From Romanomermis culicivorax (Eukaryota > Nematoda > Enoplea > Mermithida > Mermithidae), in assembly GCA_963922205.1 (NCBI GenBank), contig CAWUHX010000261.1, positions 124,001 to 188,000 of the forward strand: a stretch of 64,000 nucleotides of DNA, in the 5' to 3' direction. This document shows positions 31,208 through 53,641 of this stretch, in pieces. The notes beneath the pieces were generated by a model, which was not told where the DNA came from, ran no database searches, and saw only the letters and a list, made by a program, of their open reading frames with translations. The position numbers were made by a program, and so were the translations under genes. Position 1 is the stretch's first letter. The number at the start of each line of letters is the position of its first letter.

Positions 31208-31441
31208 GTGAGCAACAGAAGCATTAAGAAAATTCACGACGTCATTTTAAAAAAACACAATTTTTTCATCGATAGAATCAATCGAACAAACAAATTTCAG
31301 TACTTACGCACACTGTTTTTTCCACGAACTTCTTTCCACAAATGTGGAAAGGAGTCAAATTTTTTCCCCACATGTGGAAAAAATTTTTTTTTGGTCTTAA
31401 AATTTTCGATTTACGCTTGAAAATGCTCATAAACGCTTTAT

Positions 31442-31640
31442 CATACCTGTACTTGAGGGGTTGGGGGGGGACCCCCCCCCAACTTGGCCAACCCAGTACC
31501 CAAAATTATTTACCCCCCCCAGTTGGGAAAAAATTGAAAAAATTTGCCAAAAAGTGTATGTTTTTTGGACTTTTTTGGGAAAAATTCCGACTTTTTCCTA
31601 CCCCCCCCCCCCCCAACTGGTCGGAGGTCTTACAGGTATG
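31442..31640 (+). mobile_element. family P element (copy 7)
   Basis: CATACCTGTACTTGAGG to CTTACAGGTATG with perfect duplication cgctttat, inside the K compound element. Confidence 0.95.
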
Positions 31641-31899
31641 CGCTTTATTTAGTGTTTTTTGAGCTTTTTAAAGCATTCTGATAATCATTCTGTTTGATCT
31701 GATCATATATCTCTAAAATTAAACTTTGTGTTCGTAGATCGTAATTTATAGAAATTTATCATTCGAAAAATTTAAAATCGTAACCTTTCATAAATCTAGC
31801 CGAAAAGCAATGAGGAGTGTAGAAATTTTCCAAAAATTCTTCCATGAAGCTTTTAAATTGAATTTACGTTAAGAAAAGAACAAACGCTTCAAAAAGTTG

Positions 31900-49400: not shown

Positions 49401-52331
49401 GCTTATTTGAAACAAACTGAAAAAGGACACAAAACGGTCATTTTTACACAAAAAATGATCAAAATGTCAATTTTTAGCGCGTTACACGTTCAATCTTTTT
49501 CCTCTGATGATCCCCTGAAATTTTCGGCAATTGATAACCCCTTCCATAAAAATGTTACTTGACGATTACTCAGATCTCGAAGCTTCGTAGCTAAATTACA
49601 TTCCATACCTGTAATTGGGGGGGACCTCTACCCCTAACTTGGTCGAACCCTATACCCAAATGTCGGAACCCTCACCCCCAACTTAGTCAACCCTATACCC
49701 AATCCCCCTCAAACTCGGAAAAATGGGAAAAAATGAGGAAAAAAGTAGCTTTTTGGCCTTTTTCGGAAAAATTTTCGAAATTTTTTCAACTTTTTTGGGT
49801 TTTTTCGACCCCCTCCCCTAAATTTTGGAAATGTTGGGACCCCCACACCAAAATTTTGGGCTTATTCTCCCTCCCCCCAACTGGTCGGACCTCTTACAGG
49901 TATGTTACATGCCAAAGCTTCTTGTTGTGTTAATGAGTCTTTGCAAACATAATTTGTAAATTGTTCTATCATTCTTCACTCTGAGTTAACATTTTCTGAC
50001 TGTAATTGATACTTAATCTTTACACTCCAAAAATGGTTTTTGACAATCCGATTGCTAATACAATTGTTTTACAGGACCGATATCGCTGGTTTGAAAGATG
50101 CCAAACGTCTACTCGAAGAAGCCGTCGTTTTACCCATGTGGATGCCCGAATTTTTCAAAGTAATGCGAAAAGTGCATATTATTAATTTCAACATTTCTAA
50201 ATATCCCCTCTCTTCCAGGGTATTCGACGTCCGTGGCGCGGTGTTTGTATGGTCGGACCGCCCGGCACCGGCAAAACTATGCTGGCAAAAGCCGTGGCTA
50301 CGGAATGCGGTACGACGTTCTTTAACGTCACGTCGTCTACCTTGACGTCGAAATATCGCGGCGACTCGGAAAAATTGGTTCGTTTGTTGTTTGAAATGGT
50401 GAGCAAAGTATACAAGTTCGACTTTTGCATTACATCAGAACATCATGCAACGTCAATAATGGAATTTTTTACTCGAACTTATGGAATGTTTTTGTAATGA
50501 GACTTGAAATTTTGGTCGAAAATGAATGTCATTAATTAAATTTAGTCTCCATCCAATGATACTTTTTAGGCGCGTTTTTACGCTCCGAGTACGATTTTTA
50601 TCGACGAAATTGATAGCATTTGTAGTAAACGTGGTTCCGAATCAGAGCACGAGGCATCTAGGCGCGTGAAATCGGAATTACTTATTCAAATGGATGGTAA
50701 ATAATCTTCAGTTTTTCAAGAATCGGTTTGGTAGTTTGATATTTTTGGCTAAAAAAAATATATGAACGATGATAACAATTCCGAGAGATTTTACACTTCG
50801 GAAACCTTTGCACCTCAACCTTATGTGTTTCGAACAAAAAATGCGCAAAATTTAGCACGTTAGTTTCAAAATATTCCTTAATATTTTTCGTCTAGTCGAA
50901 AAAAAGCTCAATTTTAGAGGAAATCTCAAAAAATGTTTCAAAGGTCCATTTTTTGCTCATTTTTTATGGAAGTTGGGGTGAGAAAATCCCAGATTTTCGG
51001 TAGGTCCGACAGATAAGGGGATCCGACAAACCTTCTCAATTTCAGTTATATCATACCGAAAACGGGGAGCGATTAATAATTACTTTTTCATTTATTTTTA
51101 GGCATAAATAATAATAGCGAAGAAACTAATAAAACCATCATGGTCCTGGCAGCGACGAACTTTCCTTGGGATTTGGACGAAGCCTTACGACGTCGTTTGG
51201 AAAAACGTATTTACATACGTTTACCTGACGGTATATTTTTTAATAATGATTCATTTTAAACTGATCGATGCAGCGATCCCATGAAAGTAAATTCTATATA
51301 GAAAAATAGGTAAAGCTTATCACTCTAATGAATGAATGAAGAAAATTTCATCCCATAACCTCGCAAAATGGTCAAAATTTCTCGAGTAACCTTCAGTTGT
51401 CAAATATAGTCCTATTAAAATTAAACTTAGATAAGCAGGTTGGTTTCCTTATGATTTAGGCTTTCCGTTGTCAGGGAAAAATTAGGCGTTTTTCTACAGT
51501 AAAAAGATTTCTGCTACACCAAAATGAGCATCAGTATTGAACCTACTTTTCAATTCTCACTGCGTCAATCATTTCAAAGTAAATGCACTATAGTGACTAT
51601 TACATTGTTTGTAAGCAACAAAACTATTCAATCCCTCTTAATTTTTTGTTCGGCTTTTTTGTCAAGTTCTTTTTCTGTAGCCGAAAGCCGCGAAGAAATG
51701 TTACGAATTAATTTGCGCGAATTGAAAGTTCAGGACGACGTAGATTTGAAACGTATAGCGGCCGTTTTGGAAGGATATTCCGGAGCGGATATAACGACTT
51801 TGTGCCGGTAAATCTTGAATAATCTGGTAGTTGTCGGCGTCGATAGGATTCAAAAAGGCAAAATCTTCCACACAAAAATTTTATAAAACTGTGAGAATTT
51901 AATATTCGAAGCAACTAGAAATTGCGTCTGTTGAACAACAAATACATTTTTTCTGAGAATGTTCAAAGGATAAAAAAAATTTCGATTTGTTGCGTTTTAC
52001 AACTGACAATTTTTATGATTTTTAGTACAGTAATGTTCCGATACAGTAACTAATTTTCGACATCCTACTGAAAACAATTGAAAAATGACACTTGTTTATT
52101 CAAATCCCAAAGCTAATTTCGTCTTAATTTAGGGACGCTTCGATGATGTCTATGCGTCAAAAAATCAGCGGCCTCAGTCCGGAACAAATTCGAGCGTTGC
52201 CCAAAGAAGAAGTGGATCTACCCATTACGCCGGACGATTTTCGACAAGCCATAGCCAAAACTGCCAAATCCGTAGGCATGGAAGATTTGGAAAAATACGA
52301 TAATTGGATGAAAGATTTTCGATCGACTTGA
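46437..52331 (+). CDS. KATNAL1: katanin p60 catalytic subunit (A1/A-like 1) AAA ATPase
   Basis: Microtubule-severing ATPase. Exons: 46437-46598, 46653-46846, 47677-47824, 47894-48198, 50075-50159, 50219-50398, 50570-50696, 51102-51230, 51681-51807, 52133-52331; 551 residues. An N-terminal MIT-like helix bundle ([20 protein letters not shown]) is followed by a low-complexity linker with a Gln run, the [15 protein letters not shown] box, then the AAA module: Walker A GPPGTGKT (311-318), Walker B IFIDE (367-371), the second region of homology with [19 protein letters not shown], and the Vps4-type C-terminus [11 protein letters not shown]. Details such as VWPxP and GTTFFNV lean to KATNAL1 over KATNA1. 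The exon-3 start is uncertain (47677 fits phase and tract; a frame is open further up), and its donor GTTGGC is unusual. Introns carry P and R elements. Confidence 0.93.
46993..47217 (+). mobile_element. family P element in katanin intron
   Basis: Left CATACCTATAATTGGG, right CATACAGGTATG; flanks atcagcat and atccgcat (7 of 8). More diverged than the copies in the repeat island, so older. Confidence 0.85.
48328..49184. mobile_element. family R (GGCTCC word) element in katanin intron
   Basis: Ends CAGGCTTTTTTACTC and ..AAAAAAGCCTG; flanks atgagaag and atgggaag (7 of 8). Words ATGGCTCCTAAG and TTGGCTCCTAAAAATTT are present, as in the ARL1 intron copy, with a worn hairpin CGGTGCTTCGCACC at 48534. 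Confidence 0.85.
49420..49600. mobile_element. family M fragment
   Basis: Worn M blocks: ACAAAAAATGATCAAAATGT, CAATTTTTAGCGCG and CCTGAAATTTTCGG. No ends. Confidence 0.4.
49604..49904 (+). mobile_element. family P, long-core variant, in katanin intron
   Basis: CATACCTGTAATTGGG to CTTACAGGTATG; flanks ttacattc and ttacatgc (7 of 8). It has a doubled AACTTGGTCGAACCCTATAC block and the long core found also at 28027-28219. Confidence 0.88.
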
Positions 52332-52627
52332 ATTTTTAGAAATTTTGTTTTCTTTCATTTTTTCCTCGCATTTTTTGTAATATATTTCGATTTTCCGTTG
52401 AGTCAAGACTCATTCTATGATCAAGTTTTCGTAAACTCTGTGCTTGTTGTAATCTGCAGTAAAATGAGCGTTTTATTTTTCCTCTTCCGCCTGTTACCAG
52501 TGTTGATTCTCGAGTTGACGATTTCGTCAGATGATGCTTATGTTTCTACATTCAGTAAATTAAAACAGTTCACTGTAATTTATATCACTGAATTTTTTCG
52601 GACGCCGACCGACCGGCGACTTCGTCC

Positions 52628-53641
52628 CACTGTTTTTTTTTCCCCCGGGCCTTTTCCCCAAATGGGGAAAGGGATCAAAATTTTTTTCCCCATTTTCTCG
52701 AAGTCGTTTTTTTCGCTTAAAAATGCTCACAGACGCTTTATTTACGTGTTTTTGGGCTTTTTCAGGTCTTCTGGTGTTTTTAGACCCGTTAATTCATCAA
52801 AATTGAGGAAAAAATTGAAATTTTCGAGTTCGAAGTTTAATCTACAAGCATTGGAACAAACTTTCAAGCAAACTATCCAAAAGCATAATCACTTTGAATT
52901 ACATGAGAAATCGATGGTTAAGTTCTCCATGTTGACAAGTGAGAACCTAAAAGGGATCTTAATCTTTCCGGCGCGTAGCGCCGGAAAAATTTTTTGGTTA
53001 TTGATATTCTGCGACGCTAGAAAATCAATTTTCCGAACGTTTATTTCAAGAAGTAGATTTGAATTTTGTGTTCAAAAGTCGTAATTTCTAGAATTTTACT
53101 TGAAAAATTTTAAAACCAGTATATAATTTATTTGTAAACTCTCATACTTTGGTCGAAAATATATGAGTAAGCAGAGTATAAATTTCCGAAAGATATTTCC
53201 ATGAAGCATTTAAATTGATTTTACGTTAGAAAAGAAATAATTGCATCAAAAAGCTTAGAGACTTGACATATTGATCTTTCTCAAAAGGAAAAAATGCGAA
53301 TCTTCATTAAATATAAATATCATGATAAAATATTGAAGATTACCAATGAAAACATGAGATAATACGTTCAAGATGATGAAAACTATTATAGATTATATGA
53401 TAAATGAAAGTAGACATGCTAAAAGCCGCGCCAGGGATTAGTAATGCGTAATAATGATTATTAAAGTTATAATCGGCGCGAAGCGCCGGAAAATTTTGAG
53501 ATTATGACCTTCTAAAATGCATCTTTTCTGTATCCGATCCCCAAAATTTTCTTCCCCAAATGGGGAAAGAGCCCAAAATTTTTTTCCCCTTTCCGAATTT
53601 TTTTTCCCGAAAAAGCACGATTTGGGGAAAAAAAAACAGTG
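52628..53641. mobile_element. family K (TGGGG word) hAT-like element
   Basis: Ends CACTGTTTTTTTTTCCCC and ..GGGGAAAAAAAAACAGTG; perfect 8-bp duplication cttcgtcc. Words TTCCCCAAATGGGGAAA lie at both ends, hairpins at 52968 and 53474. It gives the uninterrupted version of the next copy. Confidence 0.95.

Follow-up and report, generated by a model that had tools for sequence, protein, structure and literature searches.

A 64-kb stretch of the genome of the mermithid nematode Romanomermis culicivorax (assembly GCA_963922205.1, contig CAWUHX010000261.1, positions 124,001 to 188,000; hereafter the window) carries a group of transposons whose tips run into a stretch of T (T-run elements) and whose ends bear a short word repeated in both orientations. 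The word differs between classes of element, mostly agrees within an element, and occupies a conserved layout of slots, with a four-slot and a five-slot end. Coordinates below refer to the window, and genome-wide searches cover the whole 359-Mb genome, which looks eukaryotic in size and in hAT and LINE content and has 0 matches to an exact nematode SL1 pattern. In the following list, strand + means that the four-slot end comes first, and TSD stands for target-site duplication.

31311..33288, +, K1, TGG class, TGTGGAAA words; TSD CTTACGCA on both borders
32156..33146, -, TGG-class element nested within K1; TSD TTTGGACC; five-slot end 32156, four-slot end 33146
37147..38177, -, K5, AGG class, TGAGGAAA words; TSD GTTCGGGG; five-slot end at 37147
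38352..38792, +, K2, TGG class with an internal deletion; TSD TTGCTGAC; borders set by eye
52628..53641, +, K3, GGG class, TGGGGAAA words; TSD CTTCGTCC; four-slot end 52628, five-slot end 53641
52653..52670, +, dyad TTTCCCCAAATGGGGAAA of K3, slots 2 and 3 of its four-slot end
53785..54994, +, K4, GGG class; TSD AATGCAAG, borders by eye; a later insertion removed the five-slot end
4401..5656, -, R3, CGG class, GTGCGGA words; TSD GTTGGTAA/GTTGCTAA, 7/8; five-slot end at 4401
18364..18539, strand undefined, R4, short CGG-class element; TSD AAGAGGAT/AAGGGGAT, 7/8; borders by eye
44036..44684, -, GCGCTAATG-class element; TSD ATGGTCAA on both sides; four-slot layout at the 44684 end
55017..56152, +, GCAC-class element, GGCACAA words; TSD GTTGGCGG; four-slot end at 55017
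14469..15893, strand undefined, T-run element with GGCTCCTAA words; TSD CCTTAGAT; only part of the slot layout in common

Two insertions interrupt K1: the nested element, of the TGG class like K1 itself, and an unrelated one at 31442-31640. In K5, slot 4 of the five-slot end is empty and the opposite end retains a TGG word. Of the elements named in the first-pass annotation of this DNA, K1, K3, K5 and R3 are true insertions by their flanks (8-bp direct repeats at the first three, 7/8 at R3); its list lacked the element at 44036-44684, which has the same architecture.

The T-run elements are best taken for non-autonomous hAT-like transposons, an assignment that TSD length, tip form and target preference (T at position 2, A at position 7) fit. 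Perfect 8-bp repeats flank 20 of 23 elements, collected by requiring 7 or 8 of 8, and with the same tip pattern real borders gave 19 pairs vs 3 with shuffled TSDs. The tips are short terminal inverted repeats of the CA..TG type, which the finder required (CACTG, CACCG, CAGGG, CAGTG and CAGCG). A tip motif CASSG had been proposed; T-run ends with 8-bp TSDs were recovered as described, but the motif was too narrow, the tips being CACTG, CACCG or CAGGG; CANNG plus a T-run describes them better. hAT elements prefer nTnnnnAn as a target, and among 22 perfect TSDs a T stood at position 2 in 14 and an A at position 7 in 13 (pooled, 27/44; binomial p 6e-5). Subterminal repeats are present in both orientations, as in hAT elements.

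Word agreement and slot layout

Words of the form TGNGGAAA occur 71 times in the window (T 22, A 21, C 14, G 14), many of them singly and outside these elements. The K-type dyad TTTCCNCAAATGNGGAAA had 2,266 matches in the genome (1160 + 1106), and its reversed control had none (0 + 0). Among the first 100 matches in contig order, which are no random sample, the dyad arms read T/T in 64, G/G in 31 and mixed in 5 (by eye, counted twice). Partners thus agree in 95 of 100, in line with the proposal that palindrome partners changed together. A three-slot test added a third slot about 20 bp further inward, which has no palindrome partner in the dyad; it gave 519 + 495 matches with a control of 0. 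All three slots were concordant in 94 of the first 100 of these, again in contig order, and one slot deviated in the other 6 (by eye). Between the most frequent T row and the most frequent G row, 5 of 41 positions vary, and the switched base accounts for 3 of them. In most of the 23 listed elements the words match between the two ends, which lie about 1 kb apart. The claims that words mostly agree within an element, group by element type and changed together are thus supported, the last also for slots outside the palindrome.

The agreement extends beyond this dyad. A general pattern, with a dyad of any word beside a T-run tip, matched 3150 + 2803 times vs 19 + 34 in the control. In 53 of 91 distinct ends (100 listed matches minus 9 duplicates, in which the same end was matched with the T-run shifted) the cores of the first and last arm were identical, whereas 5000 shuffles averaged 11.6 such ends and never exceeded 23.

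Unbiased word finding in T-run elements returned GTGCGGA, TGTGGAA, GGGGAAA, GAGGAAA, GTGCAAA and TGTACAA. Elements with GTGCAGA lie at loci L052 (4680-5048, TSD CTGCAGAC) and L031, those with GGCACAA at window position 55017 and L062, and those with GGCTAAA at L032 and L044; GCGCTAATG words occur at 44036. Beyond TG[T/G/A/C]GG, slots are thus filled by CAG, CAA, TAC, GCAC, GCT and GCGCTAA words. The change had first been described as a one-base switch; its set-wise nature stands, but the limit to one base does not, at least nine words occupying one conserved slot layout. A fixed frame, TG-NNN-AAA, was tried and rejected because it fails for the GGCTTGT, GCAC, GCGCTAA and GGCTCCTAA words, and the slot layout was adopted in its place.

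When ends are aligned from the tip, elements with different words place them at matching positions in matching orientations (below, signs give orientation and numbers the distance in bp). At the four-slot end (- - + -), exact words stand at about -14, -27, +36 and -59 in GGG, CGG and CAA elements, and at -27, +35 and -59 in most TGG elements; CAG, TAC, GCAC, GGCTAA and GCGCTAA words also fill the four-slot windows 9-17, 23-31, 32-39 and 54-63 with at most one mismatch. The five-slot end (- + + - +) has two versions that differ by about one helical turn at slots 1-2: a narrower one (about -11 +20 +40 -60 +70) in CGG, CAG, CAA and TAC, and a wider one (about -12 +30 +50 -74 +83) in TGG, AGG, GGG, GCAC and GCT. 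Slots 2 and 3 lie 19-20 bp apart wherever both words are exact.

We scored every orientation pattern at the same positions in 237 distinct T-run ends from the window and the loci, allowing one mismatch. The mirror-image orientation, identical by construction, was left out of the comparison. A single word filled the four-slot pattern in 38 of the 237 ends, vs at most 8 for other orientations, and the wider five-slot pattern in 16 ends, vs at most 1.

Two further sets of ends were noted in passing. At L059 an element starting at 2986, with the tip CATAG plus T-run, carries GGCTTGT words ordered - + + - + by eye; its body is 87-91% like those of CAG elements, and it sits inside a CGG-class element. 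At L041 1042-1090, C1:974406, C1:2676568 and C2:954265, AGG words lie inside a terminal word GAGC or GGGC, possibly the start of a further switch.

Element bodies and relic words

Internal sequence had been said to be common to all types. This is the case for K1, K3 and K5 (blastn: K1-K3, 75% over 1042 bp; K3-K5, 60% over 1073 bp, E 6e-48, in opposite orientation), while R3 is related only weakly (to K1, 63% over 178 bp, E 2e-9). One shuffled copy of each of the four gave no match at E 1e-3.

Five of eight class pairs have body identities of 84-92%, above the shuffled background (best 0.78-0.84): TGG/GGG 0.92, TGG/CAA 0.89, TGG/CAG 0.84-0.86, TGG/GGCTTGT 0.87 and CAG/GGCTTGT 0.87-0.91. The outer 135 bp of the same pairs are 0.75-0.84 identical, a comparison that has no shuffled control. 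Within a class, identity is 86-97% in body and outer part alike. A tree of 42 bodies (of 43 rows; the near-copy L030 was left out) needs 14 label changes vs a shuffled mean of 23.2, with CGG and CAA each forming one side of a branch, unlike TGG, AGG, GGG and CAG.

A 32-bp block about 78-116 bp from the tip also joins the classes, with 25-32 of its 32 positions matched vs 18-22 at best in shuffled copies. It is present in 9/10 TGG, 4/5 AGG, 2/3 CGG, 1/1 CAA and 1/2 CAG elements tested, and in K3 (GGG) with a deletion; the copy in the TAC element is part of a TGG element nested there. Among the elements tested, it was not found in the GCAC elements, the internally deleted elements or that at L032. 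Inverted repeats of the form CCGGCGC...GCGCCGG were also seen to recur in bodies of several word classes (in the window near 37310, 37683, 52980 and 53478).

The block together with a T-run tip marks 127 + 147 ends in the genome, with a control of 0. By hand-made patterns, 100 listed ends comprise 44 with AGG bodies, 27 TGG, 14 GGG, 11 CAA, 3 CAG and 1 unclassed, labels under which one GGG end resembles an AGG body and one AGG-bodied end has TGG in slot 3. The innermost slot of the 44 listed AGG ends holds TGG in 24, AGG in 9 and another word in 5, and is deleted in 6 (by eye); the other end of AGG elements has a TGG word at one slot in 4/4 aligned, two of them near-copies. In 9 of 11 listed CAA ends a half-dyad, CACA plus T or A, is retained at the position of the TGG class's innermost slot, within an otherwise common stretch; the remaining 2 are without it.

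The single-word exceptions that the first-pass annotation had reported in K5 therefore exist, but they are not random, as AGG ends often keep TGG innermost (24/44 listed). It had named mixed words inside single elements as the finding that would overturn its model; this is borne out in part, in the AGG class, where the odd words form a regular relic at inner slots and no random mixture. On the simplest view, TGG-like ends preceded AGG and CAA, the words near the tip having changed and the inner words having been left. To judge by sequence, the AGG switch looks base by base in homologous slots, and the CAA class looks as though its outer part was replaced.

A putative reader of the words

We favour, at a probability of roughly two in three, a reading in which a multimeric hAT transposase binds at the slots and the word classes are lineages of its specificity. 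The subterminal words would be transposase binding sites, probably recognised by the N-terminal DNA-binding domain, which is a BED finger in known hATs. A multimeric transpososome would read them in a fixed geometry, with four sites (- - + -) on the one side of the element and five (- + + - +) on the opposite side. Once a transposase lineage shifted its specificity, elements with matching sites would be amplified; whole word sets would be replaced, and layout and body retained. Two routes are visible: base-by-base change in homologous slots (TGG, GGG, AGG; CGG vs CAG) and, in the CAA class, exchange of the outer 70-80 bp in one block. Fixed, asymmetric, helically phased sites with changeable letters could then be the trace of an altered reading head on an unaltered quaternary structure. 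That a transposase is the reader, that it multimerises and that its specificity changed is what we infer from the words and their slots. We would give even odds to a fuller version, a lock-and-key radiation in which one genome's hAT transposase lineage was re-specified at least eight times and up to nine sites per element were re-lettered, with an unchanging geometry and the change moving inward from the tips, so that inner words survive as fossils of the earlier specificity.

Several results weigh against this reading. Body identity is at background for TGG/AGG (0.81 vs 0.83), TGG/CGG (0.72 vs 0.81) and CAG/CGG (0.77 vs 0.80), so the body kinship of AGG and CGG is argued from blastn and the 32-bp block; the body tree needs 5 changes for TGG, 3 for GGG, 2 for AGG and 2 for CAG. 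The narrower five-slot pattern was filled in 8 vs 7 of the 237 ends, which has no significance alone, and the test is uninformative alone because the words concerned are partly self-palindromic. The 237 ends include related copies, so all these counts are non-independent events, and the slot windows were picked after some ends had been viewed, so that the test addresses orientation and not position. In the AGG class, slot 4 is missing and the other end has words only in its slots 1 and 4; slot 2 of GGG and slot 5 of CGG are degenerate, and TGG elements fill slot 1 of their four-slot end inexactly. First and last arms were non-concordant in 38 of the 91 ends of the general dyad test; these 38 include differently arranged families and single-base decay.

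The search for a transposase also belongs on this side. It covered 30 loci at the best hAT-dimer matches and 28 regions at hAT or BED matches, four of which enlarge places among the 30, giving 54 distinct places. No hAT coding was found inside a T-run-tipped element at these 54 places with PF05699/PF02892 matches; scoring reached 150 of 1837 candidates in one set and 150 of 798 in the other, and absence of a transposase from the genome is therefore not established. In the window elements themselves no coding was seen, the 10 scanned of 14 listed open reading frames giving no Pfam family above cut-off. In Hermes, finally, right-end repeats were not seen bound by BED domains, and mutants of inner left-end sites kept about 70% activity (PMC10368747); nine bound slots would therefore exceed Hermes.

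Pairing of the DNA with itself, as a hairpin or cruciform, could make dyad arms change together through foldback selection or repair homogenisation with no protein reader. Folded as DNA, five of six 100-nt ends outdo most of their shuffles (z -2.1 to -5.0), and the concordance of palindrome partners in 95/100 listed dyads fits as well. However, the four-slot end of K3 folds no better than shuffles (z -0.48), slots without an adjacent partner switch too (94/100 listed concordant), and words about 1 kb apart at opposite ends agree in most of the 23 listed elements. Pairing alone would not keep the orientation and spacing of unpaired slots, and we consider it highly improbable as the cause. Another possibility is that recombination or template switching repeatedly placed complete ends of unrelated hAT families on a single passenger body, leaving words without common descent. 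Similar bodies beside divergent outer 135 bp (the outer part without a shuffled control) would be expected, as would the CAA ends, which replace the outer part and hold a TGG relic inside in 9/11 listed. Yet TGG, GGG and AGG ends align slot by slot with partly common spacers, AGG mosaics exist as intermediates with part of the slots switched, and one layout across nine word classes is not expected from unrelated families. End capture is thus an unlikely account of the whole, though it explains part of the CAA class's history.

The words might instead bind an accessory protein, element-encoded or from the host, such as a VANC-like anti-silencing factor. VANC binds short repeated motifs of VANDAL elements, and these motifs vary between related elements (PMC5735166): in VANDAL21 of Arabidopsis, YAGTATTAC occurs in both subfamilies and YAGTATTAT has accumulated at many places in one. 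The likeness is that a one-base difference evolved jointly in many copies and the specificity of the binding protein evolves too. According to the same source, VANC is an anti-silencing protein, the motifs multiplied in non-coding tandem repeats and the old motif persists beside the new; here, by contrast, at least nine words fill fixed slots within about 90 bp of each tip, as hAT-end repeats do, with no tandem arrays. The slots are single and fixed, and no Pfam family scored above cut-off in the 10 scanned of 14 listed open reading frames of the window elements. We hold an accessory reader to be very unlikely. VANDAL21 also bears on the statement that no described family has this pattern: a one-base change in a repeated transposon word is known from it, albeit, as far as that source goes, in another kind of transposon and in tandem repeats.

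A hAT transposase as the reader has its nearest parallel in Hermes. In the accessible text of PMC10368747, several BED domains of the Hermes octamer bind short left-end subterminal repeats cooperatively, two of which form a quasi-palindrome near the tip. Shared with the T-run elements are the hAT affiliation, short repeats near both tips in both orientations, the left-tip quasi-palindrome, the asymmetry of the ends and, on the Hermes side, several BED domains per end; in contrast, that text treats one element with one motif (AAGT/AAGC) and no related set exchanging motifs in a conserved layout. For hAT-derived BED proteins, the available parts of PMC8097297 report widely differing motifs, those of four hAT proteins matching their own subterminal regions. 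CGGBP and its relatives resemble the proposed reader in combining BED and Hermes-type domains with many sequence preferences, but the portion seen covers the protein side, without a conserved site layout or a nested word history in one genome. Open-access titles and abstract openings on the diversification of hAT subterminal words yielded no conserved layout with exchanged words.

The elements bear on how a DNA-binding protein and its many dispersed sites can change jointly: thousands of copies preserve such site sets in several states, mosaics included, with the layout nearly constant. If the transposase reading is right, they would give a constraint on site geometry in the hAT transpososome beyond Hermes, a ready set of words from which a BED-finger code could be derived, and a probable reason why families of miniature inverted-repeat transposable elements (MITEs) become insulated from each other's transposases.

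Other hAT families and neighbouring repeats

Readable borders at the hAT and BED places had TAG-type, CAGGGCCGTG/CAGAGCCGTG or CAGGGCTGG tips. T-run ends near hAT domains were considered as the cognate element and rejected, being part of other insertions (L027/L039, L052, L059). A cross-check by eye found ten pairs of TAC ends and BED places 353-375 bp apart; these too were rejected, as nested insertions, the L044 end lying inside a BED-bearing TAG-tipped element.

The TAG-tipped elements (L043, L045, L055, L056, L058, L061) form a second hAT radiation, with families that have their own dense subterminal words (GATCCGGA, GCATCGGC, ACCCCGAC, CCTCGGCC, AACTCGAA). Those at L045, L055, L058 and L061 share the 8-bp TSD and family-specific words (GATCCGGA, GCATCGGC, CCTCGGCC, AACTCGAA) with the T-run elements, but differ in their dense word arrays, their tips and the BED exon inside L045 and L055. 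Four of the six (L043, L045, L055, L056) contain a BED or hAT-dimer domain, so that word and finger could be compared there.

BED-exon elements of 1.5-1.6 kb with TAGGGATGGGCCGG-like tips were seen at L044 (2826-4402), L045 (2956-4522), L046 (2532-4151) and L047 (2338-3842). Each has a BED frame of about 70-86 amino acids, with no longer hAT frame seen in these four; 37 listed matches share a BED score of 43.9 bits, three of the four loci among them. Such elements might encode a DNA-binding-only protein that competes with the transposase.

Within the window, the insertions at 31442-31640 (in K1) and 54023-54259 (in K4) are inverted-repeat elements rich in G/C runs, with ends CATACCTG...CAGGTATG and 8-bp duplications (CGCTTTAT; CTTTCAAG). 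Several more copies were recognised by eye in the window, and they are another hAT-like MITE family. At 41448-43313, a 621-amino-acid open frame resembles, as judged by eye, a reverse transcriptase of the long interspersed nuclear element (LINE) type.

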